A stretch of 64,000 nt of DNA, from the NCBI RefSeq assembly GCF_011769985.2, contig NZ_CP039734.2, forward strand, positions 744,001 to 808,000, read 5' to 3'. Under the pieces are notes generated by a model. It was not told where the DNA came from. It ran no database searches and saw only the letters and a program-made list of their open reading frames with translations. Position numbers and translations under genes: made by a program. This document shows, piece after piece, positions 28,246 to 46,359 of the stretch; the stretch's first letter is position 1, and each line of letters begins with the position of its first letter. Origin of the DNA: Sulfurospirillum diekertiae (GTDB lineage: Bacteria; Campylobacterota; Campylobacteria; Campylobacterales; Sulfurospirillaceae).

Positions 28246-29064
28246 TTAAACCACCTCTTGATTTTGACCTTCTATGTTTGAAGATTTAGCTTCAAACTTA
28301 TAGATTTCTGAGTGTAAAACTCCTGTTTGTTTCTTCTCTTTAAGTCGGTAGCTATCTCCTTGAATATTGATGATATGTGAGTGATGTAACACTCGATCTA
28401 ATATAGCGGTTGTAACGATTTTATCTCCTGCAAAGACTTGAACCCATTTACTAAATACAAGATTTGAAGTAAAAATGGTAGAGCTTTTTTCATAGCGTTT
28501 AGAAATAATTTGAAAAAAGTGATTGGCTTCTTCTTTGCTCATATTGAAATATCCAATCTCATCAATGACAAGTACCGATGGAGAGGCGATAGATTTCAAG
28601 AAGCTATCATATTTTTTCTCTTTTTTGGCTCTATTTGCATTACTTAAAAGCTCACTTATGGTGGTAAATCTTACTTTATAGCGATGTTGCACCGCTTTGA
28701 GTGCTAGCGCAATAGCAAGATGTGTTTTACCCACACCACTTTCACCTAAGAGGATGATGTTCTCATACTTTTTAACAAATATTAGGCTTGAGAGTTCTTC
28801 AATCTGTTTACGGTTCACGCCAACGGAGAAAGTGTAATCAAACTGCTCTAATGTCTTAATAACTGGGAATCCTGCGAGTTTGGTCAACATATTTTTAGAC
28901 CTTCCTAGTCTATTATCTACTTCCACTCGTAATACCTCCTCCAAGAACTGTGTATATTGCCAATTCTCTTTAGCTGCCATACTGGCAATATCATGATATT
29001 TTTCGCCTATGATAGAGAGCTTGAGTTCTTTACATAACTCATCGATAGAGGTATCTAACTCCAT
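28246..29064 (-). CDS. istB: IS21-family ATP-binding protein IstB
   Basis: AAA+ helper ATPase of IS21 transposition, related to DnaC, that assists target selection by IstA. Walker A is LLGESGVGKTHLAIAL (about 106-121), Walker B VLVIDEIGYFNMSKEEANHFF and sensor TIFTSNLVFSKW. 272 residues, complete. Overlaps the istA end by ten bases. Confidence 0.93.
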   Translation of the reverse strand: MELDTSIDELCKELKLSIIGEKYHDIASMAAKENWQYTQFLEEVLRVEVDNRLGRSKNMLTKLAGFPVIKTLEQFDYTFSVGVNRKQIEELSSLIFVKKYENIILLGESGVGKTHLAIALALKAVQHRYKVRFTTISELLSNANRAKKEKKYDSFLKSIASPSVLVIDEIGYFNMSKEEANHFFQIISKRYEKSSTIFTSNLVFSKWVQVFAGDKIVTTAILDRVLHHSHIINIQGDSYRLKEKKQTGVLHSEIYKFEAKSSNIEGQNQEVV

Positions 29065-30167
29065 AATGCACCACCATAAAATCCAACAGGAAGGATGATG
29101 TTTGCAACCATGGGTATAAACTCATCGTAACATTGAATGTCTCTATTGGGGATATATAATTTTTCCAAGTCTTTGTGAGAATTGATTGGGGAATATTTTT
29201 TAGCTACACTTTCAATCAAAGCTTTAGGGTGGATTCCTTGATAGGCTTTAGGCACAGGAAGTAGCTGTAACTGCTCCTGTGCTAACAACTCAAATGGCAT
29301 CTGTAATGTCGTTTGGTGGATGCGTTTATTGGCGGTATTGTCCAACCATTTTAGAACTTCCGCATTTGCATTATCAAGCGTTAATGTGTAATGTTTCATA
29401 GAGAGTCTCACTCGTAATCCATTATGAAAGTTATACCGCAGATAATGGTTAAATCTCTCAACTTTTCCTTTGGTTTTAGCGCGATAGGGTTTGCATACTT
29501 TGATACTAAATCCACAGTGTTTGGCAAAGTCAGCAAACAAGGGATTGAATCTATGATCACCTTTACCATAGTCATTTCGTGACAATATGACAGTTTTCAT
29601 ATTGTCATATAAACACTCTTTTGGAACACCACCAAAGTAGGCAAAAGCGTTCATATGGCACCCTATCAAGGTCTCAATCTTCTCATTATTAACGTATTCC
29701 ACATAAGATGCTCTAGAGTAACCCATCGTCGCTACAAAGGCGGATAAATTATCCTTGGGAAACTCTACCCAGTCAACTTGCATCTGCTGGGCTGGTTTGG
29801 TTTCAAAGCGTATAATAGGCTCATCTAATTTGGCTCGAGCTCTAAGCTCATATCTTAGTATGACTTGTTGAAGCCACCTTAGACTTCCATCATATCCAAG
29901 CTTCTTAATCTCTTCATAAATGACGGTTAAGGGTATTTCACTTTTCTGCTGCTCTGCCGTCTCTAACATCTTGGCGATATGTGGCAAATAAGGATCAACA
30001 CTGTTAATCACAGGAGGTCTATTGATATGGGGAATATAATCATCTGGAAGATTGGCATAGCGCCTTACAGTTTCTCTTGAAATACCTAACTTTCTAGCAA
30101 TGGCACTTTTACTAAACCCTTCAGCTAAAAACTTCTTTATCATTTTAATTTCACCTTTTTTTAACAT
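29055..30167 (-). CDS. istA: IS21-family transposase IstA
   Basis: DDE transposase. The N-terminal helix-turn-helix includes SKSAIARKLGISRETVRRY (about 19-37). The rve-type catalytic core has QVDWVEFP (first Asp), YDNMKTVI (second Asp) and KGKVERFNHYLRYNF (catalytic Glu). 370 residues, a little short for the family but apparently intact. GGAAAGGAG lies before the ATG. With istB it should make a functional element. Confidence 0.92.
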   Translation of the reverse strand: MLKKGEIKMIKKFLAEGFSKSAIARKLGISRETVRRYANLPDDYIPHINRPPVINSVDPYLPHIAKMLETAEQQKSEIPLTVIYEEIKKLGYDGSLRWLQQVILRYELRARAKLDEPIIRFETKPAQQMQVDWVEFPKDNLSAFVATMGYSRASYVEYVNNEKIETLIGCHMNAFAYFGGVPKECLYDNMKTVILSRNDYGKGDHRFNPLFADFAKHCGFSIKVCKPYRAKTKGKVERFNHYLRYNFHNGLRVRLSMKHYTLTLDNANAEVLKWLDNTANKRIHQTTLQMPFELLAQEQLQLLPVPKAYQGIHPKALIESVAKKYSPINSHKDLEKLYIPNRDIQCYDEFIPMVANIILPVGFYGGALWS

Positions 30168-30293: not shown

Positions 30294-31964
30294 GTGCTTC
30301 TTGCTCTTTTGATTCAAACGCCTTTATGGTGTGAGAGTGACTATGTTCAAAACTATTTGCAGGAGCATCAGGCTAAGAGCAAAGCGGTAAGTGATGCGTT
30401 TGGTAAACTCGTCGTGCAATCGCGCATGGGGCGAATGAAGCCTTTTGATACACTCAGCCAAGAGGTACTTTATAAACTCAGTGGTAAAAGCAGCCTGTAC
30501 GATATGGATGCGATGCAAGTAATGCTTGGAATGCTTTCCCATCCCACTTTGTGGAAAACACTGCCGATGATTCAGACCAAAACGCCACGACTTAGGGATT
30601 TTATCGGTATTGCGAAAGAGCAAAAACTAGCAACTTTTGAAGATTTTTTCGACGGACATCGTTACAAATTAGACGCTGAACTTCAAAAAGCTTTGGCGAT
30701 GAAACCCAGCCAGAGAGGCACCTTTGAGAACGATCTGATCAAAGTCGATGAGCGTTTGAGCATTGCGTTTATGCTCTACCAAGGAGTCCTCTTTAAAATC
30801 TTCCCACTGCCCAATGATGCGAACCACACATGGCTTGCCTTCGAGCAGATGTTTGCACAACTTCAAGGTGAAGAGGCAAAAAAATTACAAGAGAGTTCCA
30901 CCGCTTTTATTGAAGCACTGTTTGAGCGAAATTACGCCAAAGCACTTTTACATGTAAAGACGTTTTCACAGTTTCAAACCCACTATGGCGCGGATATTAT
31001 GCCTTCACCCACACACATCAAAGTGGAGATACTCTTCAATAAACTGATGATTTTTGAGCGTTTAACCTTGGCGTATGTACTCTTAGGTTTGGTGCTTTTA
31101 GGCGTTGCATTTGGGCATGTTTTTGCTCCCAATACCTTTACATGTAAACTGAACCGTCCGCTCTTTTTCAGTGTCGCAATGCTGTTTGTCGTGCATACGT
31201 GTGGGCTCGCTTTGCGTTGGTATGTGAGCGGTCATGCGCCTTTGAGTGACACGTACGAGTCTATTGTTTATATCGCGTGGTCGTGTCTGCTTTTTTGCAT
31301 GCTCTTTATGCGCACTTCGCTTTTTGCACTCTCTGGCTCGGTGATGATGGCGGGCATCTTTATGTTTGTCGCACACCTAGGGCACATTGACCCAGAGATC
31401 ACCAATCTTGTGCCCGTTTTAAAATCGTTTTGGCTTAGCGTACATGTCTCCATCATCACCGCCAGTTACGGCTTTTTAGCCCTGGGTTGTGCATTGGGAT
31501 TTTTCACGCTCATCCTCTTTACATGTAAACCTTCTTCTAAAACCATTGCGACCATCAAGCACCTTACCTCCATCAATGAAATCACCCTGATTTTGGGCTT
31601 GAGTCTTTTGGTCATCGGTAACTTTTTAGGCGGTGTTTGGGCGAATGAATCGTGGGGGAGGTATTGGGGTTGGGACCCGAAAGAGACGTGGGCGTACATC
31701 TCTATTTTGGTGTATACCATCATTTTACATGTAAGGCTTGTACCACGGATTTATTCGCACTATTCGTTTGCGGTGCTTTCACTTTTAGGGTTTGCCTCCA
31801 TCTTGATGACGTACTTTGGCGTGAACTTTTACCTTGCAGGCATGCACTCCTACGCTACGGGCGATCCTGTGCCAATTCCACTTTGGGTTTATGTATGTAG
31901 TGTCGTGGTCGCAGGTTTGATTATAATGTCGTATAAAAATAGATTTTTAAAGGAAGAAAAATGA
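30294..31964 (+). CDS. nrfI: C-terminal part of a CcsBA-type cytochrome c synthase, NrfI-like, truncated by the IS
   Basis: Haem-attachment protein of cytochrome c system II. The periplasmic segment VVQSRMGRMKPFDTLSQEVL is followed by about eight membrane helices and the haem-handling WWD motif in WGRYWGWDPKETWAY (about 452-466), so the CcsA half is complete. The N-terminal ResB half (some 350 residues in Wolinella NrfI) is absent: 19 bases upstream lies the IS21 end, and an in-frame TGA precedes the GTG used here. The next gene resembles nrfJ, so this is the tail of an nrfHAIJ operon. A functional product is doubtful. Four iterated palindromes fall inside. Confidence 0.8.
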   Translation: MLLALLIQTPLWCESDYVQNYLQEHQAKSKAVSDAFGKLVVQSRMGRMKPFDTLSQEVLYKLSGKSSLYDMDAMQVMLGMLSHPTLWKTLPMIQTKTPRLRDFIGIAKEQKLATFEDFFDGHRYKLDAELQKALAMKPSQRGTFENDLIKVDERLSIAFMLYQGVLFKIFPLPNDANHTWLAFEQMFAQLQGEEAKKLQESSTAFIEALFERNYAKALLHVKTFSQFQTHYGADIMPSPTHIKVEILFNKLMIFERLTLAYVLLGLVLLGVAFGHVFAPNTFTCKLNRPLFFSVAMLFVVHTCGLALRWYVSGHAPLSDTYESIVYIAWSCLLFCMLFMRTSLFALSGSVMMAGIFMFVAHLGHIDPEITNLVPVLKSFWLSVHVSIITASYGFLALGCALGFFTLILFTCKPSSKTIATIKHLTSINEITLILGLSLLVIGNFLGGVWANESWGRYWGWDPKETWAYISILVYTIILHVRLVPRIYSHYSFAVLSLLGFASILMTYFGVNFYLAGMHSYATGDPVPIPLWVYVCSVVVAGLIIMSYKNRFLKEEK

Positions 31965-35983: not shown

Positions 35984-37309
35984 TTATTTTTGGTGTGTTT
36001 TATAGCGTTTAACCAAATGTTTTGGTGAAACACCACACCAGTATAAAAAGCTTAAAACACGATTTCTAAGGGTGGTGTAAAGGATGCCTTCTTTCTGCCA
36101 TCTTCTGGATGAAGTTAAGGCTTTGGGCTTTAAAAGGGCGATCTTTTCTCCTTGTTTTTGAATGTGTTTCATGATCTCCACATCTTCCATGAGTGGTATT
36201 TCTGCGTAGCCACCGAGGTTTCTAAAAAAAGAAGTTTTAAAAAACTGGGCTTGATCGCCGTAGGGAATGCGGGTGATCGAAGTTCTAAAATTTGCCATGG
36301 TTTCGATGAAACGAAAGACAATGTTGGCATCATCAATTCCCAGTGAAAAAGCGCCCGCTTTGTTTACATGTAAAGACTCTTGGATGAGCGTGTCCCATGC
36401 GTTTGGAAGCAGAGTATCGGCATGTAAAAAAAGCACAATTTCTCCCCGTGCTTTGCGTGCGCCTTCATTCATCTGGGAGGCTCTTCCTTTGGGGGCAAAG
36501 ACGATGTGAACATCTTGTAAGGCTAAATGCTCCACCGTTGTTTTTTCCTGTGTGTCGGCCACGATAATTTCGTAGTTTTGGCTTTGCGCCATCTCTCTCA
36601 AATGTGTTAGGGTTTTCAGCAGTGTTTCGTCTTCATGGTACACGGGGATGATGACACTGATGTGGGGCAATGTGCCTAAAACACGCTGTGCAAAGTGTGC
36701 CAGAGGTGTCGTGAACGCTTTACATGTAAAAGCACGCAGGTCATCCAATGTGTCGATGTCAGAAAGCATCGCACCTTTGGCAACGCGAAGATGTGCCATC
36801 TTTGAAAGCGTTTTAGCATAGACATCGTTTTGGCTGTAGGTAATGCCTTTAAACGCTTCTTTGCAAAAGGTGTCAGCATGAAAACCAATGAGATAATACC
36901 CGCCATCTAGCGTAGGAGAGAGTAGGGCATCGTTGGAAAAAAGTAAGTCAAACGCTTCTTTTAAAAGGAGCTCATCCACTTCGGGAATATCCGAACCCAC
37001 TAAAATAGCACTCGCATATCCTTGTGCAAACACTGCTTCAAAGGCATTTTTCATGCGCTCACCCAAGTCCTTGCCGCTTTGATACAAGAGAGGTTTATGT
37101 TCCACATAAGCAGGTAAAGGCATACGTGCTTCATTATCATACGCCACGATAATATCGACATCGCGTGGTAGCGTTATGCTGAGCAGTTGTTCACACATAA
37201 GACGGTAAAGTATGGTAGCGTTTTCATCGCCAATATGCTCAGCAAGGCGTGTTTTTACTCGACCAACAAGAGGCGCTTTCATAAAAAGAATTAGTGCGTT
37301 TTGGCGCAT
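35984..37309 (-). CDS. Fused arsenosugar-type glycosyltransferases (TIGR04282 plus TIGR04283)
   Basis: Two transferase domains in one chain of 441 residues. The N-terminal part (about 1-200) resembles the DUF2064/TIGR04282 family (ALILFMKAPLVGRVKTRLAE, VGSDIPEV, SPTLDGGYYLIG). The C-terminal part (about 217-441) is a GT2 family transferase of TIGR04283 type (ISVIIPVYHEDETLLKTL, GRASQMNEGA, LFLHADTLLP, GGYAEIPLMEDVE). These two families usually occur side by side, next to the arsenosugar radical SAM enzyme ArsS. The stop of the kinase gene overlaps its start. The product is inferred to transfer a sugar or nucleotide onto a modified ribose. Confidence 0.82.
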   Translation of the reverse strand: MRQNALILFMKAPLVGRVKTRLAEHIGDENATILYRLMCEQLLSITLPRDVDIIVAYDNEARMPLPAYVEHKPLLYQSGKDLGERMKNAFEAVFAQGYASAILVGSDIPEVDELLLKEAFDLLFSNDALLSPTLDGGYYLIGFHADTFCKEAFKGITYSQNDVYAKTLSKMAHLRVAKGAMLSDIDTLDDLRAFTCKAFTTPLAHFAQRVLGTLPHISVIIPVYHEDETLLKTLTHLREMAQSQNYEIIVADTQEKTTVEHLALQDVHIVFAPKGRASQMNEGARKARGEIVLFLHADTLLPNAWDTLIQESLHVNKAGAFSLGIDDANIVFRFIETMANFRTSITRIPYGDQAQFFKTSFFRNLGGYAEIPLMEDVEIMKHIQKQGEKIALLKPKALTSSRRWQKEGILYTTLRNRVLSFLYWCGVSPKHLVKRYKTHQK

Positions 37310-38382
37310 AAATGCCGCTCCACAATAGCGATAAACTCTTCCACACTCTTTACATGTAAAAAGTGTTCAACCAGCTCTATGCTCAGATTTTCACACAGTG
37401 CGTAGGCTTTAGTTTTGGCTCTCTTAGAATGAATTGCCTCAAGGGGCTTGGCTTTGGCAGGGACGACCAAACGGCGTGAAAGCTCTGCTCCGCAAAAGCC
37501 GACACTCTGCTCTAAAATATGCTCAGGTACGCCACCCATTTTCTTTTCAAATGCGTTCCAAAGCGCAGAGAGGGTGGGTTTGAATTGGAGAGGTTTTTTC
37601 TCAAAAAGATTGTAGATTTCACCTAAAAGAATGTGCGCCAAAAGTGTTCCAACATCAAATCCTAAAGGGGCAAAGCAGGAGAACTCTGCATCGATGATGG
37701 CGAGGTTTTCATGCTTGATCATGATCGAACCTGTGTGCAAATCGCCGTGAATCAAACACTCTTTTTCCTGTTGGAAGAGGTTTAAAAGAAGGCTAATGTT
37801 GTGCAGAAAAAGCGCACTTTTGGGTTTGGGGCAAAAGTAAGAGGGCAACACCAAAGCAGGGTGATTGGAAATGTAGGGGAAGATGAAAATATACTCTTCG
37901 CTGATGCGTTTAAGGGTGGCATTTTCATAGTAGCCCTCATCCTTCTTTGGCGGTGTTTTGGCGTATAGTGTTGCCAAAAATGTGCCCAGTTTCGTGTAAA
38001 TAGAAAGCGGAATAAACTGCTCAAATTGGGCAGTTTGCAAGAGTTTATACTCCACAAGATCTTCCATAACAAAGCAAAATGCTGCTTCATCACAATGGTA
38101 AATATTTGGAATGAACGATGGCGCGATAGTTTTAAAGTAAGAGAGCGTGTGCATCTCCACACAAATACGGTTTTGTGGAAGCGGAAAATCTTTACCTAAA
38201 AGCCTAAGATAGGGCGCTGCATATTTGAGAATCAGCGAATTTCCACTCTCATCCTCAAGGCGAAAGATAAAATTTAAGTTACCGTCTCCAATTTCGCTGA
38301 CATGTAATGGAGGCGTTTTGAAAAAAGTTTTTAATGCGGTCGTTCTTTGAGCATAATCAATAATCTCATTTTCCGTTTGCAT
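37291..38382 (-). CDS. Methylthioribose-kinase-like small-molecule kinase
   Basis: 363 residues with the aminoglycoside/choline-kinase fold. The motifs are those of MtnK: IGDGNLNFIFRLED near 32-45, LIHGDLHTGSIMIKHENLAI (catalytic loop) and IDAEFSCFAPLGFDVG. MtnK phosphorylates 5-methylthioribose in methionine salvage; no other salvage gene is here. It overlaps the arsenosugar-type glycosyltransferase gene, so I infer a kinase for a 5-substituted ribose such as 5-deoxy-5-dimethylarsinoyl-ribose. Classical MtnK remains possible. First gene of the - strand half of the cluster. Confidence 0.75.
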   Translation of the reverse strand: MQTENEIIDYAQRTTALKTFFKTPPLHVSEIGDGNLNFIFRLEDESGNSLILKYAAPYLRLLGKDFPLPQNRICVEMHTLSYFKTIAPSFIPNIYHCDEAAFCFVMEDLVEYKLLQTAQFEQFIPLSIYTKLGTFLATLYAKTPPKKDEGYYENATLKRISEEYIFIFPYISNHPALVLPSYFCPKPKSALFLHNISLLLNLFQQEKECLIHGDLHTGSIMIKHENLAIIDAEFSCFAPLGFDVGTLLAHILLGEIYNLFEKKPLQFKPTLSALWNAFEKKMGGVPEHILEQSVGFCGAELSRRLVVPAKAKPLEAIHSKRAKTKAYALCENLSIELVEHFLHVKSVEEFIAIVERHLCAKTH

Positions 38383-38595: not shown

Positions 38596-39042
38596 ATGAA
38601 ACTTGCTTCATTTTTTGTGTTGCCGATTGCGGCTTTATTAGTGATTGGTTGTGGTGGAAAAGTGAAAGAAAACTCAAAATACAACTACATTACAGCGGAT
38701 GAGACCGCAAAATTGATACGTGAAGATGCTTCTAAGATCGTTCTTGTTGACATTCAAGAAAAGCCTGATTTTGATGAAGAACATTTAAAAGGTGCCCTTG
38801 CAACCTATGCGTACCCTGTCAAAACAGAGGATGAAAAAGCAAGACTAGCCACCCTTCTCCCCGAGATTAAAGAGGGTCAAAAAGTGATTATTGTCTGTCC
38901 AAGAGGCGGTGGAGGAGCTGATCGCGCGTATGATTTTTATCTTTCAAAAGGTCTTAAAAAAGAGCAACTTTTAACCCTCAAAGATGGACAATACGGTTGG
39001 CCACGCGATAAAGTCAAAGACGTTTTAGCCGTCAGTAAATAA
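38596..39042 (+). CDS. Rhodanese-domain lipoprotein
   Basis: 148 residues. The type II signal peptide ends in LVIGC (Cys19), so it is membrane-anchored and faces the periplasm. The rhodanese-like domain (about 30-145) has an active-site loop starting VCPRGGGGADRAYDFY, with Cys101 followed by a Gly-rich loop longer than in classical sulfurtransferases, as in oxyanion-binding members. It heads the + strand half of the cluster, four further genes following with little or no gap. Role unknown; sulfane sulfur or an oxyanion such as arsenate may bind. Confidence 0.85.
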   Translation: MKLASFFVLPIAALLVIGCGGKVKENSKYNYITADETAKLIREDASKIVLVDIQEKPDFDEEHLKGALATYAYPVKTEDEKARLATLLPEIKEGQKVIIVCPRGGGGADRAYDFYLSKGLKKEQLLTLKDGQYGWPRDKVKDVLAVSK

Positions 39043-39714
39043 ATGCTTAAGCCACGCAAAATAGCGATACTGCTCTTTGTCGGTATCGCGCTTACCTTTC
39101 TTTTTTCCTGCCCCCAAAGTCGAAACTATTTTTTTGATGTGGTGGGGTTGTTTGAAGGGCTTGATATTGAAAAAATCAAAACGTACATTCTCTCTTTTGG
39201 CATTCTAGCACCTCTAATCTCTTTCGCGTTGATGGTCTTTCAAGCCATTGTGGCTCCTTTGCCCGCATTTCTTATTACCTTTGCCAATGCAGCACTTTTT
39301 GGTTGGGTATACGGAGCCGCACTTTCATGGGCAAGCGCCATGGTGGGCGCACTTTTGTGCTTTTACATCGCCAAGTTTTTAGGACGTGAAGTGGTTGAAA
39401 AGCTCACCAGCAAAATGGCGTTAGAGAGTGTCGATGCTTTTTTTGAGAAGCATGGCACGTATGCGATTTTGATTGCACGTCTTCTGCCTTTTATCTCGTT
39501 TGATGTGGTCAGTTACGCCGCAGGACTGACGTCTATGAGTCTTCGTTCTTTTTTGATCGCCACGGGCGTGGGACAACTGCCTGCAACATTGATCTACTCG
39601 TATGCGGGAGAGATGCTGACCGGTGGTGCTCAAACGATTGTGTATGGACTTTTGATCTTATTTGCACTTTCACTTTTGATTTATTTGATTAAGCGGGTGT
39701 ATCGTGGAAAATAA
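39043..39714 (+). CDS. TVP38/TMEM64-family membrane protein (first copy)
   Basis: 223 residues, about five to six membrane segments with the VTT/SNARE-associated core (FANAALFGWVYGAALSWASA, GREVVEKL, ARLLPFISFDVVSYAAGL). DedA-superfamily proteins act as lipid scramblases or transporters; TVP38 genes often occur in metalloid gene clusters. Starts directly after the rhodanese stop and overlaps the Fe-S protein gene by 11 bases. Confidence 0.88.
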   Translation: MLKPRKIAILLFVGIALTFLFSCPQSRNYFFDVVGLFEGLDIEKIKTYILSFGILAPLISFALMVFQAIVAPLPAFLITFANAALFGWVYGAALSWASAMVGALLCFYIAKFLGREVVEKLTSKMALESVDAFFEKHGTYAILIARLLPFISFDVVSYAAGLTSMSLRSFLIATGVGQLPATLIYSYAGEMLTGGAQTIVYGLLILFALSLLIYLIKRVYRGK

Positions 39715-40807
39715 AATCAAAGCGTATGAGCGTGAGTGTGTGGATTGTAGGAGTTGTATGAAGGGTTGTCCGATGTTGTACAGCTTTACTATCTCTCCCA
39801 AAAAATTGCTCACCAAATTTACCACGGAGATTCCAAGCTCTCAGATGGCGTTTTCATGCGCAAATTGTGGTCTATGTGCGCACACATGTCCTCATGATAT
39901 TGACTTTGGCGCGATCTTTACAGCTTCTAAGAAGAACTACGCTGAAGATAAAAAAGTGTTGAAAAAGTATGGCTATGGTGGCGTGATATTCCATCAAAAA
40001 AGTAGTTTTTCAAAACTTTTTTCTACTACAAAAAAGTTTACAACTGGAGAGTACACCCATATGGCATTTATGCCTGGATGTGCGCTAAGCTCGTACTCTC
40101 CGAGCCTTGTTCACACCGTTTTTAATTACTTACAATCCAAATGTTCTGGCATTGGTATCATTCAACAATGCTGTGGCACACCCACTCGTGTTATGGGCGA
40201 TATGGCACAATTTAAAATCTACCACTCACAGCTTGAAGCAGACCTAGATAAAATGGGTGCGACCACCGTTGTGACAGCCTGTGAAAACTGTTTTATGAGC
40301 ATTAAAACCTATGCCCCACATATTAAAATCGTTTCACTTTATTCACTGTTAGCGCAGATTGGACTTCCAGAAAGCGCCAAAGACCGCCATAAAAATACCC
40401 TGAAAATGGCACTGCATGACCCGTGCCCCACACGGTATGAAAAAGAGATTCATAAAGACGTTCGTACCCTTTTAGCACAGATAGGTTTACCTTTTGAAGA
40501 GTTCAAACAAAATCGTGAGAAGACGCTTTGTTGCGGAAGCGGAGGTATGTTGGAGCTGACCAATTCTGCTTTAGCGCATGAGCAAATGCGCACGCGTGCC
40601 AACCAAACAGAGTGCGAAAGCATCGTCAGTTACTGCCAAAGTTGCGCGGAGTCGATGAGTCATGGGGGTAAAAATGGCGTGCATCTGCTTGATCTTATTT
40701 TTAACCCCACCTTTGAGATGAAGCAAAAAGAGCAGGGAACTTTAAAAAAATGGTATAACCGTTTTACATCACGTCAAATGATCAGCGCTCTAAAGGATAA
40801 CACATAA
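39704..40807 (+). CDS. Fe-S oxidoreductase with two CCG domains, HdrB/GlpC-like
   Basis: 367 residues. Two [4Fe-4S] ferredoxin motifs at the N-terminus (CVDCRSCMKGCP near 17-28, CANCGLCAHTCP near 52-63) are followed by two CCG domains (CCGTPTRVMGD and CENCFMS; CCGSGGMLELTN and CQSC), as in heterodisulfide-reductase HdrB and lactate or glycerol-3-phosphate dehydrogenase subunits. Such proteins pass electrons to thiol/disulfide chemistry. No partner dehydrogenase is nearby. Starts with GTG inside the preceding gene. Confidence 0.88.
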   Translation: MENKIKAYERECVDCRSCMKGCPMLYSFTISPKKLLTKFTTEIPSSQMAFSCANCGLCAHTCPHDIDFGAIFTASKKNYAEDKKVLKKYGYGGVIFHQKSSFSKLFSTTKKFTTGEYTHMAFMPGCALSSYSPSLVHTVFNYLQSKCSGIGIIQQCCGTPTRVMGDMAQFKIYHSQLEADLDKMGATTVVTACENCFMSIKTYAPHIKIVSLYSLLAQIGLPESAKDRHKNTLKMALHDPCPTRYEKEIHKDVRTLLAQIGLPFEEFKQNREKTLCCGSGGMLELTNSALAHEQMRTRANQTECESIVSYCQSCAESMSHGGKNGVHLLDLIFNPTFEMKQKEQGTLKKWYNRFTSRQMISALKDNT

Positions 40808-41448
40808 AAAAGGTCATACTTTTTTTAGCCTTTGGCATTGTGATGTTTGTCTTTTATAAAAATGGCGTGCTCTCTTACGCACAAGTTGAGTCCATCAAAA
40901 CGTTTGTACTTGGCTTTGGTATTTACGCACCGCTTATTTTCATAGCTCTTTTTACGCTTGCACCGCTTATCTTCTTTCCTGATGGTATTTTAGCACTTGC
41001 GGGCGGGCTCATTTTTGGCTTTGCATGGGGGAGTTTTTACATCATTTTAGGTGCACTGTGTGGCGGTACATTGTCGTTTTACCTTGCACGACTTTACAGC
41101 CATAAAATGCGTGAAAAATTGGCACATGAAAAGCTGATACACTTTCAAAAAAGCGTTCAAAAACATGGTTTTGTGATGATTTTGTTGTTGCGATTGGTGC
41201 CCTTAGTTCCGTTTAACATCATCAGTTACAGTGCTGGGTTTTCAACGATTCGCTACCGTGATTTTTTCTTTGCAACGCTTTTGGGTATGATGCCAGGAGT
41301 TTTAGTGTACGCCAATATAGGTGCGCAATCGCTGAGTTTTGGAAGCCAAGAGTTTTACCTCTCGGTGGCATTATTGGTTGTGCTCGTGGTGGTTTCGATG
41401 GTGTTAAAACACCGTGTAAAAAAGAGGTTGGAGAGGTATGAAAAGTAA
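40804..41448 (+). CDS. TVP38/TMEM64-family membrane protein (second copy), probable AUA start
   Basis: Second VTT-domain protein of the cluster (FPDGILALAGGLIFGFAWGS, LLRLVPLVPFNIISYSAGFS). The natural N-terminus, KKVILFLAFGIVMFVFYKNG, begins right after an ATA codon at 40804 that overlaps the previous stop and has AAAGGAT six bases upstream. The next ordinary start, GTG 40840, lacks a ribosome site and removes half of the first helix. AUA initiation, or a G-to-A change or base-call error in an original ATGA overlap, explains this best. 214 residues. The 3' end overlaps the radical SAM gene by 11 bases. Confidence 0.82.
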   Translation: MKKVILFLAFGIVMFVFYKNGVLSYAQVESIKTFVLGFGIYAPLIFIALFTLAPLIFFPDGILALAGGLIFGFAWGSFYIILGALCGGTLSFYLARLYSHKMREKLAHEKLIHFQKSVQKHGFVMILLLRLVPLVPFNIISYSAGFSTIRYRDFFFATLLGMMPGVLVYANIGAQSLSFGSQEFYLSVALLVVLVVVSMVLKHRVKKRLERYEK

Positions 41449-43618
41449 TTGGCAACGTATTGTTTTTGAAGAGAGTCCTATTTATGTGCATCGCCACAGT
41501 GCGGACTGGTTTGTGCCCAATTTTGCGGCGGATAGGTTATTGCAAAGCGATGAAAAAAGCCTTGCATATGAGGCGTTAAAACATCGTATTTCTGAGCCAA
41601 ATCCTTTGGTTTATAGACCAAAACCAACTTCTAAAACAGCGCTGCAAGAGTTTTGGATCCATCTGACCAACCGTTGCAATCTCTCGTGTACGCATTGCCT
41701 TTTTACCTCTTCACCCACAGAGAAAGATACACTGAATTTTGAGTCTATTTCTTTACATGTAAAAGAGGCGTACGCACTGGGTTGTCGGCTTTTTATCATC
41801 AGTGGTGGTGAGCCGTTGGTGCATCCTGAACTGCTAGCGTTGGTTGAGATGATTTTAACACTCAGTGACACCGAAGTGGTCATCTTAACCAATGGCATAT
41901 TGCTTGAAAAAGTCTTTACATGTAAAGAGTTTCCAACCTCACGTCTGCATTTTCAAATCAGCCTTGATGGTCTGCCCAAAGAGCATGATGCCATTCGTGG
42001 GCAGGGAAGTTTTGACAAGCTTGAGCACAATATTGTTTGGCTTCAAAAAGCGGGTTATTCGTTTTCATTGTCAGTGTGTCTGCATCCTCTGAATATTGCG
42101 AGTTTAGAAGCGATTGTGGCATTGGCAAGCGAACTTAAAGCGGGACATCTGCATTTCTTATGGTATTTTTCGCGTGGACGAGGCGAAAATGAAGGTTTAA
42201 TAGACCAAGACGTACTCTTTCAAGCGCTGATCAATGCCTATGAAAAAGCGCAACAATTAGGCTTAGTCATTGACAATTTTGAAGCGCTCAAAACGCAAAT
42301 CTTTGCCCCCAAAGGTACGGTACATGACGGCTCTAGTTCGGGGCGAAGTTCCATCGCTTTAGGCTACGATGGACACTTTTACCCCAGTGCCGCGATGGTA
42401 GGTGAGAGTGCGCTTTTAATGGAAGGTGAGAGCATCGCTAAGGCGCTTGAAAGTAAGGTGGCTCAAGCGATTTGGGCGCAGTCCATCACCGCACTCTCTT
42501 CGCCACTTCGTTTTTTACTGGGTGGTGGCGACTTAGACCACAGCTTTTCTCATGCCAAAACCTTGATGGGCGATGACCCGTATGAACCCCTTTTGGAGAA
42601 GCTTGCCTTGTGGATGATTTCACAAGAGGCGAAGCGATTTGAGCCTTTACATGTAAAGCCTGCTTTGTGTTTGGAAATGGGTGACATCTTGCAGAGTTGC
42701 GGCGCAAATGAAGGTGTGGCGCATACCCATGCGAACTGTCTGCTTGCCACAGGTGAGAGTGAATCGTTGCGCCTTGTGAAAGCCTTTTACCATGACGCGG
42801 CATTGGAAGATAAAGAAGACATCCTCAACCCTGCATGCTACGAAGAGCAGTACCTTTCGCACATTCCCTCCCATTTGCGCTTTCGAGGGTACGGCTGTGG
42901 CAGTCCTATCTTAGATGCGAAGCTCAAAATGGGTGAATCCATGCTTGATCTTGGTTCTGGCAGAGGCATTGAGTGTTTTATCGCCTCAAAACTTGTAGGG
43001 AAAAGTGGGCGTGTCGTGGGTGTCGATATGCTCGACTCCATGCTCAAAATCGCGCGAAGTGGCGCAGAAGAGGTGGCGCAAAGTTTAGGTTATAAAAATC
43101 TCACATTTGCCAAAGGTTACCTTGAAGCATTGCCAGAGGACGATGAGCGTTTTGATGTCATCACCTCCAACTGTGTGCTGAACCTCTCCAGTCACAAACG
43201 CAAACTCTTTGCCGAAATCTTTCGGGTGCTTAAAAAGGGCGGAAGGCTTGTAGTTTCCGATGTTGTGTGCGACGAAGAGGCAAGTGCACTTATCCGCAAT
43301 GACGCAAAACTAAGTGGTGAGTGCATCGGCGGAGCGCTGACACAAGCCCATCTTTTAGGACTACTACGTGAGAGTGGCTTTGAAAACGTTGAGCTTATCA
43401 AACGCTTTTTTTACCGTGAGGTGCAAGGGCATATGTTTTACTCGCTTACGTTTGAGGCACACAAGCCAGACACGCAAAAGCAGGTCGAAGTCATCTACAA
43501 AGGTGTAGGCGAAAGCCTTGCATTAGACAATGGTATTGTGCTGTTTAAAGGGGGTAAAACACGCATTGATGAGGCTTTGGCAAAGCGGTTGGAAAGCGAG
43601 CTGTTTACTGGACGATAA
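41438..43618 (+). CDS. Radical SAM protein fused to an ArsM-like methyltransferase
   Basis: 726 residues. Radical SAM domain about 70-330 with CNLSCTHC (Cys80, 84, 87), the SGGEP motif at 122-126 and HFQISLDGLP. A Cys-containing linker (Cys411, 421, 434) leads to a SAM-dependent methyltransferase (about 465-672) with motif I DLGSGRG (504-510). All three arsenite-binding cysteines of ArsM have counterparts: Cys487 (GYGCG), Cys579 (TSNCVLNL) and Cys629 (GECIGGAL). The C-terminal tail resembles that of long ArsM proteins. Predicted to methylate trivalent arsenic or a similar metalloid and then do radical chemistry on it, perhaps adenosyl transfer as ArsS does. I know of no characterised enzyme with this fusion. 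Confidence 0.85.
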   Translation: MKSNWQRIVFEESPIYVHRHSADWFVPNFAADRLLQSDEKSLAYEALKHRISEPNPLVYRPKPTSKTALQEFWIHLTNRCNLSCTHCLFTSSPTEKDTLNFESISLHVKEAYALGCRLFIISGGEPLVHPELLALVEMILTLSDTEVVILTNGILLEKVFTCKEFPTSRLHFQISLDGLPKEHDAIRGQGSFDKLEHNIVWLQKAGYSFSLSVCLHPLNIASLEAIVALASELKAGHLHFLWYFSRGRGENEGLIDQDVLFQALINAYEKAQQLGLVIDNFEALKTQIFAPKGTVHDGSSSGRSSIALGYDGHFYPSAAMVGESALLMEGESIAKALESKVAQAIWAQSITALSSPLRFLLGGGDLDHSFSHAKTLMGDDPYEPLLEKLALWMISQEAKRFEPLHVKPALCLEMGDILQSCGANEGVAHTHANCLLATGESESLRLVKAFYHDAALEDKEDILNPACYEEQYLSHIPSHLRFRGYGCGSPILDAKLKMGESMLDLGSGRGIECFIASKLVGKSGRVVGVDMLDSMLKIARSGAEEVAQSLGYKNLTFAKGYLEALPEDDERFDVITSNCVLNLSSHKRKLFAEIFRVLKKGGRLVVSDVVCDEEASALIRNDAKLSGECIGGALTQAHLLGLLRESGFENVELIKRFFYREVQGHMFYSLTFEAHKPDTQKQVEVIYKGVGESLALDNGIVLFKGGKTRIDEALAKRLESELFTGR

Positions 43619-44427
43619 TGGTAATGTCACCAATCAAAGAGGGTCAAAGCTGTTGTTGTGCGACACCACCTGAGTCCAAACCAAGTCTTTTATTGACGAC
43701 AAAACCGACAGCGAAAGTTTCGTTTAGCATAGCACCTTCTAAGAAAAACCATAACTGCATGGTCTGCGCATCGGCGCTTGTTTACACACCCTCACCGCAC
43801 GAAGTGACATGTTATTATTGCGGAAGTGTGAGCGTTCAAAGCGTTACATGTAAAGAGGGGCATTATGTGTGCGATGCGTGTCATTCCAAAGAGGCACTAG
43901 CCGTCATCAAACACATCTGCGCTACGTCTAAAGAGCGCGATATGCTCAAGCTTTTTCAGCAGATACGTGAGCATCCCAGCATCCCAAAACACGGGCCTGA
44001 ACATCATGCCATGGTACCTGCCATCATCGTTACTGCCTATAAAAACAGTGGTGGGAAACTTCCCGAAAATGCACTTAAAACAGCGCTTTCACGCGGCTCT
44101 AGCATTATGGGTGGTGCCTGTGGATTTTTAGGGATTTGCGGTGCGGCTTCGGGGGTTGGCATTGGCTTTGCGATTGTATTGGAGGCTTCACCCGTTGCCA
44201 AAAAAGCACGTTCTGCGGCTCAAAAGGTCACATACGCAGTGCTCGGTAAAATCGCTGAGTACGAAGCGGCGCGTTGTTGCCATAGAGAAGTCTGGACAGC
44301 CCTCAATATCGCTTCATCGCTCTCCGAAACCTTTTTACATGTAAAGCTTTTGGCACAGATGGAAACGAAATGCGATCAGAAAAAGTTTAACCAATATTGC
44401 TATGGAAAAGAGTGCCCGATATTTTAA
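43618..44427 (+). CDS. DUF5714-type Cys-rich protein
   Basis: 269 residues. The N-terminus has a CCC run (12-14). Two zinc-ribbon-like pairs follow (CMVC and CYYCG; CKEGHYVCDACH, about 46-102), then a helical domain with HGPEHHAMVPAIIVTAYKNS (about 125-144), SIMGGACGFLGICGAASG and a Cys-rich end (KCDQ, QYCYGKECPIF). The pattern matches the uncharacterised DUF5714 family, often beside radical SAM genes; the family name is from memory. TAATG overlap with the radical SAM-ArsM gene implies joint action, perhaps as substrate carrier or metal-binding partner. Confidence 0.75.
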   Translation: MVMSPIKEGQSCCCATPPESKPSLLLTTKPTAKVSFSIAPSKKNHNCMVCASALVYTPSPHEVTCYYCGSVSVQSVTCKEGHYVCDACHSKEALAVIKHICATSKERDMLKLFQQIREHPSIPKHGPEHHAMVPAIIVTAYKNSGGKLPENALKTALSRGSSIMGGACGFLGICGAASGVGIGFAIVLEASPVAKKARSAAQKVTYAVLGKIAEYEAARCCHREVWTALNIASSLSETFLHVKLLAQMETKCDQKKFNQYCYGKECPIF

Positions 44428-44443: not shown

Positions 44444-45259
44444 ATGATGAAATATAAACGTGAATTTATGGGTGAATGCTTAGGAACGTTTATGATGGTG
44501 ATGTTTGGATGTGGTTCTGTTGCGGTGTCGGTGTTGTTTAATGCCCATCAAGGATTGTTCCAAATAGCGATGATTTGGGGTATGGGTGTGAGCCTTGCCA
44601 TTTACGCGGCACGTCATTTATCGTGCGCGCATCTCAATCCAGCCGTGACGTTGGCAATGGTGATCAGCCAAAGAATGACGATCAAAAAAATGCCTATTTA
44701 TCTTTTAGGGCAGTTTCTTGGCGCTTTTGGTGCAGCTGTGATGGTGTATGTGCTCTTTAATCCTTCTATTGTGGCTTTTGAAAATGCGCATCACATCATT
44801 CGTGGTACGCAAGAGTCCATTGCAATCGCGAAAATGTTTGGTGAATATTATCAGTTCCCTAACAGTAATGCCATCGTCTCGCTGCCCTTGGCGATGATCG
44901 CAGAAGGATTTGGAACGTTCTGCCTTGTGATTATCATTTTTTGTTTGACGGAGAGCTGTAATTTGGGACGACCCGATGACAATATAGCCCCCATTCTCAT
45001 AGGGCTTGCCGTCACTTCCATCATCTGCCTTATCGCCCCTTTAACGCAAGCAGGACTGAACCCTGCACGGGATTTTAGCCCTCGTATGGTTGCATGGATC
45101 TTTGGGTGGAAAGAGGCTTCTTTTCCTGATCAAGTTGGAGGTTTCTTTTGGGTTTATATCTTAGCTCCTTTGCTTGGAGGCATGAGTGCGGGATTTTTAT
45201 TTACACGCCTCATTGAGCCTCTTATGCGTAACAAATGTGAAAAATGTGACTGCCAATAA
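44444..45259 (+). CDS. Aquaglyceroporin (MIP family)
   Basis: Membrane channel of 271 residues with six helices and two half-helices carrying NPA motifs (HLNPAVTL, 64-71; LNPARDFSPR near 200). Asp after NPAR marks the glycerol-facilitator subgroup, which also conducts neutral As(OH)3 and methylated arsenicals. A Cys-rich tail (KCEKCDC) could bind a soft metal. Seventeen bases after the DUF5714 gene; no glycerol kinase is nearby, so metalloid flux is a better guess than glycerol uptake. Confidence 0.9.
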   Translation: MMKYKREFMGECLGTFMMVMFGCGSVAVSVLFNAHQGLFQIAMIWGMGVSLAIYAARHLSCAHLNPAVTLAMVISQRMTIKKMPIYLLGQFLGAFGAAVMVYVLFNPSIVAFENAHHIIRGTQESIAIAKMFGEYYQFPNSNAIVSLPLAMIAEGFGTFCLVIIIFCLTESCNLGRPDDNIAPILIGLAVTSIICLIAPLTQAGLNPARDFSPRMVAWIFGWKEASFPDQVGGFFWVYILAPLLGGMSAGFLFTRLIEPLMRNKCEKCDCQ

Positions 45260-45270
45260 AAAGGATGATG

Positions 45271-46359
45271 ATGAAAACACGTATTATTTTAGTGGGTGGA
45301 TTTTTGGGAGCGGGTAAAACTACGCTGTTGTGTGAGTCGGCACGAATGCTGAGTGAACAAGGCAAACACGTTGGTTTAATCACCAATGATCAAGCCTCAG
45401 GACTGGTCGATACAGCGTTTCTTGAGCACTCCATCCGTTCCGTTACAGAGGTGAGTGGTAGCTGCTTTTGCTGTAATTTCAATGGGTTTGTAGAGGCTAT
45501 CTCTCACCTCAAAGCAAAAGGTGCTATGGAGATGATTATTGCTGAACCTGTAGGCAGTTGCACGGATCTTTCTGCCACGATTATGCAGCCTTTAAAACAA
45601 AAATTCGAAGAGGATTTGATCGTTTCGCCGCTAAGTGTTTTAGTCGATCCCGAACGGTTGAACGCTATACTCAAAGGTGGTACATCGGGGTTTCATGAAA
45701 GTGCGGCGTATATTCTTCAAAAACAGCTTGATGAAGCCGATATGATTGTCATCACAAAAATAGATTTACTCTCACGTGATGCGCTTGAAACCTTAAAAAG
45801 ACGAGTTGCCAAGAGGTGGCCATTAGCTAAAATCTTCTCCTTAAGCGCTAAAAGCGGTGAAGGCTTGGAACTGTGGCTCGATGAAGTGAGCCATTCTACA
45901 GTAGCAGGAACGCACTTAGCCGAAGTGGATTATGATATTTACGCGCAAGGCGAAGCCGTGCTTGGATGGCTTAACACGACAGTCACCCTTCAAGGTCACT
46001 CAGTAAATTGGGATGCGTTCACGCACAAAATGTTAAAAAGCTTGGCAGAGCGGTTTGATGCTTTAAACTTAGCCGTTGGGCATGTCAAAGTGTTACTCGA
46101 AGCCGAAAAAAAGTATGTGATAGGCAATGTGACAGGAAAGAGTGAATCTCTTAGCATAAGAGGCAGTGCAGGAAGTGGAAATCAGGCTCAAATGACGTTA
46201 AATGCGCGTGTTGAAATGAATCCAGCAGCGTTAGATCGTATTGTAACAGAGGTCCTTTCTGAGGTATGTGGCAATGAGGTTACTCAAAAAATCGAAGCTT
46301 CCAAATGCCTGCAACCCGGACGACCAAACCCAACCTACCGCTACGATTATGTCGTATGA
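45271..46359 (+). CDS. CobW/G3E-family GTPase
   Basis: 362 residues. Walker A GGFLGAGKTTLL (about 8-19), the metal-binding CFCC motif (SGSCFCCNFNG near 65), Walker B-like IIAEPVGSC, and NKxD-like ITKIDLL. G3E GTPases are metallochaperones that deliver zinc, cobalt or nickel. The C-terminal CobW domain is divergent. Three consecutive ATG codons occur; the third (45271) has the best spacing from AAGGA. Last gene of the + strand half of the cluster; it may load metal into the DUF5714 protein or another partner. Confidence 0.88.
   Translation: MKTRIILVGGFLGAGKTTLLCESARMLSEQGKHVGLITNDQASGLVDTAFLEHSIRSVTEVSGSCFCCNFNGFVEAISHLKAKGAMEMIIAEPVGSCTDLSATIMQPLKQKFEEDLIVSPLSVLVDPERLNAILKGGTSGFHESAAYILQKQLDEADMIVITKIDLLSRDALETLKRRVAKRWPLAKIFSLSAKSGEGLELWLDEVSHSTVAGTHLAEVDYDIYAQGEAVLGWLNTTVTLQGHSVNWDAFTHKMLKSLAERFDALNLAVGHVKVLLEAEKKYVIGNVTGKSESLSIRGSAGSGNQAQMTLNARVEMNPAALDRIVTEVLSEVCGNEVTQKIEASKCLQPGRPNPTYRYDYVV

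Follow-up and report, generated by a model that had tools for sequence, protein, structure and literature searches.

A methylthioribose kinase homologue joined to a nucleotidyltransferase-glycosyltransferase gene in Sulfurospirillum diekertiae, and its possible place in an arsenosugar-type pathway

What does a homologue of methylthioribose (MTR) kinase do in a genome that lacks the isomerase gene mtnA, and why does its gene overlap one that encodes a glycosyltransferase? The question is raised by a 64,000-nucleotide stretch of Sulfurospirillum diekertiae DNA (contig NZ_CP039734.2, positions 744,001 to 808,000, hereafter the window), for which an original prediction made from the sequence alone proposed that the kinase activates an arsinoyl-ribose. 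Its direction was right, in that an MTRK-family protein stands outside salvage and is joined to a gene for a nucleotidyltransferase-like and a glycosyltransferase domain; the arsenical substrate is unproven. The reading favoured here, at slightly better than even probability, is that the enzyme is a 1-kinase for ribose with a replaced 5-hydroxyl group, recruited from methionine or 5-deoxyribose salvage into an arsenosugar-type pathway.

A kinase outside known methionine salvage

The kinase open reading frame is a real gene and its product, as originally claimed, is a homologue of MTR kinases with the MTRK fold. Its best NCBIfam model is TIGR01767 (S-methyl-5-thioribose kinase; E 1.4e-67), where its 228.6 bits fall below the curated equivalog cut-off of 275 bits, and its only sequence matches in the PDB are two MTR kinases, 2pyw (E 4e-36) and 2olc (E 3e-33). 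An AlphaFold model (mean pLDDT 88) matches MTR kinases with Z 39.5-43.3, superposing on 2pyw with Z 43.3 and a root-mean-square deviation of 2.2 over 355 residues, while the next fold, PsiK, reaches Z 29. The protein thus shares the fold of MtnK from Bacillus subtilis and Arabidopsis thaliana, but shows only 25-27% identity to it, and the phylum's canonical kinases exceed it in length by about 45 residues. In the kinase tree the Sulfurospirillaceae sequences group together as one clade whose stem is long (SH-aLRT 100), outside which fall the kinases of genome G166, Verrucomicrobiota and Alicyclobacillus; among the genomes compared, the close relatives that carry a name belong to Sulfurospirillum and Sulfurospirillaceae.

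The window's genome has a listed completeness of 100%, and genome-wide statements made here rest on family searches. These returned a single MTRK-like gene and a methylthioadenosine/S-adenosylhomocysteine (MTA/SAH) nucleosidase (TIGR01704), with neither mtnA (TIGR00512) nor an MTA phosphorylase (MTAP). The second mtnK and complete salvage pathway that the original prediction advised looking for are therefore not there. Among 298 Campylobacterota genomes, 26 gave a kinase match. All 13 canonical kinases (open frames of 406-428 aa) adjoin mtnA, while all 13 non-canonical ones, comprising the window's kind and the divergent G166 protein, adjoin a TIGR04283 gene that scores over cut-off; mtnA was found in none of the 13 genomes of the latter group. 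Within the window's own family the kinase and TIGR04283 are both present in 12 of 17 genomes and both absent from the other five. An ordinary MTR kinase, serving methionine salvage through unrecognised downstream enzymes, would account for the TIGR01767 match and the full set of catalytic motifs, but is very improbable given the score below the equivalog cut-off and a genome without mtnA, when the canonical kinases sampled across the phylum all have mtnA as a neighbour.

The 3' end of the kinase gene overlaps the start of a gene whose product fuses a TIGR04282 domain to a GT2-type TIGR04283 domain (163.4 bits against a cut-off of 134, and 230.1 against 182, respectively). The overlap noted in the original prediction is real, and overlaps of 4-19 bp occur at the equivalent junction in relatives. 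The closest solved structure to the TIGR04282 domain is 3cgx, with the guanylyltransferase structures Rv2983 and 7p97 next among the fold matches, which identifies a nucleotidyltransferase fold and suggests that TIGR04282, although called a 'glycosyltransferase', is a putative nucleotidyltransferase. A kinase that produces a sugar 1-phosphate, combined with a domain of nucleotidyltransferase fold and one of GT2 type, would make sense as a unit that first activates a sugar and then transfers it, so the idea of a missing activation step survives in its activation part, while arsenic on the substrate stays unproven. Exclusion of the kinase from known salvage and its coupling to the nucleotidyltransferase-glycosyltransferase gene are well supported.

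A conserved active site and a changed 5'-pocket

The catalytic and ribose-binding residues are conserved. The G-loop GxGNxN, K53, HGD, DxEF and RR are invariant in the kinase alignments, in agreement with the motifs described for MTR kinases (GxGNxN, HGD, DXE(F) and RR; PMC2194712). In the B. subtilis enzyme W74, L180 and L345 cap the 5-methylthio group, but this hydrophobic cap is not strictly conserved and MTR kinases tolerate bulky 5-substituents (PMC2194712). F66, Y164 and P308 of the window kinase stand at these positions, so the hydrophobic cap is not retained. Phenylalanine at the first site is shared by 10 of 64 canonical kinases, and tyrosine occupies the second throughout the window kinase's clade. 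A comparison made post hoc, with the data already seen, shows the third site to be L, I, V or M in 62 of the 64 canonical kinases but, in the four lineages linked to these transferase genes, P in 16 of 16 members of the clade, A in G166, and T in both Alicyclobacillus and Puniceicoccaceae K14; P308, K310 and K312 are invariant within the clade. The alignments support an enzyme that would keep its ribose chemistry while its 5'-pocket has changed.

DrdK, an MTRK-like enzyme that uses 5-deoxyribose and MTR (PMC6079011), offers a different explanation, namely that the kinase salvages or disposes of methylthioribose or 5-deoxyribose and clears a by-product of the radical-SAM enzyme encoded in the neighbouring operon. 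Both proteins belong to the MTRK family, and 1-phosphorylation of a 5-deoxypentose, which is predicted for the window kinase, would be common to them. DrdK, however, adjoins the isomerase DrdI and the aldolase DrdA (PMC6079011), whereas the window genome has no TIGR00512 isomerase, an aldolase not having been searched for separately. Since that isomerase is missing from all 13 genomes with the non-canonical kinase, the pathway would stop at the 1-phosphate; together with the changed pocket and an overlap with the nucleotidyltransferase-glycosyltransferase gene rather than an aldolase gene, this makes disposal distinctly unlikely.

The divergent operon and the question of arsenic

The kinase pair faces a divergent radical-SAM/ArsM operon on the opposite strand (Table 1).

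Table 1. Features of the window discussed in the text
Feature	Position	Strand	Remarks
Nucleotidyltransferase-glycosyltransferase gene (TIGR04282, CofC-like nucleotidyltransferase fold, fused to TIGR04283, GT2 glycosyltransferase)	35984..37309	-	441 aa
Overlap of kinase 3' end with start of preceding gene	37291..37309	-	19 bp
MTRK-family kinase	37291..38382	-	363 aa; ATG start; predicted 1-kinase of 5-deoxy-5-substituted ribose
Rhodanese-like protein	38596..39042	+	First gene of divergent operon
VTT/TVP38-type membrane protein	39043..39714	+	
4Fe-4S dicluster / CCG-domain protein	39704..40807	+	
Second VTT membrane protein	40840..41448	+	
Radical SAM (CNLSCTHC) + ArsM-type methyltransferase fusion	41438..43618	+	YGCG, SNCVLNL and ECIGGA motifs
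Cys-rich DUF5714 protein	43618..44427	+	Fused to preceding gene in relatives
Aquaglyceroporin-type channel	44444..45259	+	Candidate arsenical channel
CobW-type GTPase	45265..46359	+	
istB-like gene	28246-29064		IS21-like pair
istA-like gene	29055-30167		IS21-like pair
ccsA-type cytochrome c biogenesis gene	30294-31964		

The neighbourhood resembles that of ArsS, which was described by Cheng et al. 2021 (cited in PMC12159101). ArsS clusters of the phylum have in common TIGR04282, TIGR04283, VTT pairs, the dicluster protein and, in most, a rhodanese-type protein, and the window adds a putative ArsM-type domain to the likeness. The window differs in having a radical-SAM/ArsM/DUF5714 protein in place of ArsS, and an MTRK-type kinase where TIGR04282 of other clusters is fused to an APH-type domain or, in two cases, MTAP is a neighbour. 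The radical-SAM/ArsM protein scores 207 bits against NF008823 (cut-off 263) and keeps all three ArsM-type cysteine motifs. The aquaglyceroporin-type gene is found in S. diekertiae and absent from most of the genus, and at another locus (L091) a homologue adjoins ArsM/ArsS; whether the CobW-type GTPase belongs to the pathway is uncertain.

In eight relatives the radical-SAM/ArsM and DUF5714 parts form one reading frame of about 990-1000 aa across the locus. In the window (41438-44427), small length differences give 726 and 269 aa with a one-base overlap (TAATG), either a real split or an assembly error. Elsewhere, the IS21-like pair abuts the ccsA-type gene, whose product is short of the first 235 residues of its counterpart in the same-species genome G205; these residues were not found in the window.

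The same kinase, nucleotidyltransferase and glycosyltransferase logic could instead place an arsenic-free sugar, such as 5-deoxyribose, 5-methylthioribose or a selenium analogue, on a glycoconjugate. Alicyclobacillus ferrooxydans has an MTRK gene convergent with TIGR04282/TIGR04283 in a genome without ArsS; as that genome also has mtnA and MTAP, it counts only weakly as an independent case of the arsenosugar-type arrangement. A separate MTRK clade from Alphaproteobacteria and Acidimicrobiales (L107, L134, L122, L170 and L156) likewise occurs without ArsS; at the loci read, the kinase gene is flanked by an inositol-monophosphatase-like gene on one side and by a gene for a sugar-1-phosphate nucleotidyltransferase (NTP_transferase) on the other, and mtnA was found in none of three genomes tested. 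This clade probably represents another unrecognised sugar-activation pathway, and shows that MTRKs outside arsenic pathways can also supply nucleotidyltransferases. The DUF5714 and CobW proteins also match selenoprotein-associated models, below cut-off. Set against this, every TIGR04283 genome of the phylum sample carries ArsS or the radical-SAM/ArsM fusion, and the ArsM-type cysteine motifs are intact; an arsenic-free sugar is judged unlikely, if still to be taken seriously.

Several observations weigh against the arsenosugar-type reading itself. The window has no canonical ArsS, its radical-SAM/ArsM protein scoring 53.4 bits against TIGR04167 where the cut-off is 300; the genome's own matches to that model (best 53 bits) were rejected as ArsS and taken as general radical-SAM similarity. 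As the protein is not ArsS by model and the window is without one, arsenic as the substituent and the supply of arsinoyl-ribose by the neighbouring enzymes, as the original prediction has it, are both inferred. The Alicyclobacillus arrangement indicates that arsenic does not necessarily follow from the two transferase families. Kinases of Poribacteria carry A and Y at the two altered pocket sites although ArsS is missing from 11 genomes and, the pocket comparison being post hoc, the pocket is altered but arsenic specificity does not follow. A small residue at position 308 was accordingly rejected as an unspecific marker of arsenosugar kinases. The co-occurrence counts are not independent, because the Sulfurospirillaceae kinases form one clade, and no MTRK-type kinase lies near any of 40 Pseudomonadota ArsS loci. 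Finally, in the fused APH-type domains mentioned above NTE replaces the catalytic HGD, with the DWE metal motif kept (L088, L092, L098 and relatives; ten genomes), which makes their activity uncertain.

Two possible routes to an activated arsenosugar

Under the arsenosugar-type reading, the ArsM domain would methylate arsenite and the radical-SAM domain would add a 5'-deoxyadenosyl group to the arsenic, after which the MTA/SAH nucleosidase would remove adenine to leave 5-deoxy-5-(dimethylarsinoyl)ribose. The window kinase would convert this to the 1-phosphate, the CofC-like TIGR04282 domain would form the NDP-sugar, and the GT2 domain would move the sugar to an acceptor. Arsinoyl-ribose is the best, if unproven, candidate for the substrate.

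Other genomes appear to solve the activation step differently. Ten Campylobacterota genomes of another family have ArsS and TIGR04283 (two just under cut-off) without MTRK, and in all ten the TIGR04282 protein is extended at its C terminus by about 300 aa, a region that Pfam matches to APH phosphotransferases in the three proteins scanned (above cut-off in two, below it in one). The 23 Campylobacterota genomes carrying arsenosugar genes all lack MTAP. In the Pseudomonadota sample an MTAP over its curated cut-off adjoins ArsS at two loci (L220 and L240), and MTAP occurs in 36 of 40 genomes with ArsS against 12 of 20 without (p ~0.01, uncorrected for kinship), a weak argument for a phosphorylase route. 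The notion that every ArsS cluster has a kinase was rejected, as none of the 40 Pseudomonadota loci has either MTRK or the fused APH-type domain. Methionine salvage reaches a sugar 1-phosphate either via a phosphorylase or via a nucleosidase and a kinase (PMC6302742), and the presence of a kinase, a fused APH-type domain or MTAP according to lineage is the pattern expected if either route yields the sugar 1-phosphate. In Puniceicoccaceae K14 (Verrucomicrobiota; L123, 9941-13329) an MTRK gene is convergent with an adjoining ArsM/ArsS region in a genome with ArsS and no mtnA, and about 4 kb separate a canonical mtnK-mtnA pair of Arcobacter sp. EP1 from an ArsS-ArsM/TIGR04282/TIGR04283 cluster. 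A second TIGR04283 gene of genome G181, on contig C23 (L100), has surroundings atypical for the genus, possibly through contamination.

No description of the steps from the ArsS-made adenosylated arsenical to finished arsenosugars was found in the literature open to search; queries joining arsenosugar with methylthioribose, or with glycosyltransferase and selenoprotein, returned nothing, most subscription journals lying outside the search. The most specific form of the proposal, a dedicated 5-deoxy-5-arsinoyl-ribose 1-kinase that feeds the nucleotidyltransferase-glycosyltransferase fusion, an arsenic-containing nucleotide sugar, and interchangeable phosphorylase and nucleosidase-plus-kinase routes, is tentative and falls somewhat short of an even chance. 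If true, the kinase would fill a gap in the bacterial building of arsenosugars, giving one of its steps a specific enzyme that is open to assay; nucleoside phosphorylase and nucleosidase plus kinase would be alternative solutions, and the two routes to the 1-phosphate would mirror the two entries into methionine salvage. Furthermore, genes annotated as mtnK in genomes without mtnA may fall outside methionine salvage.
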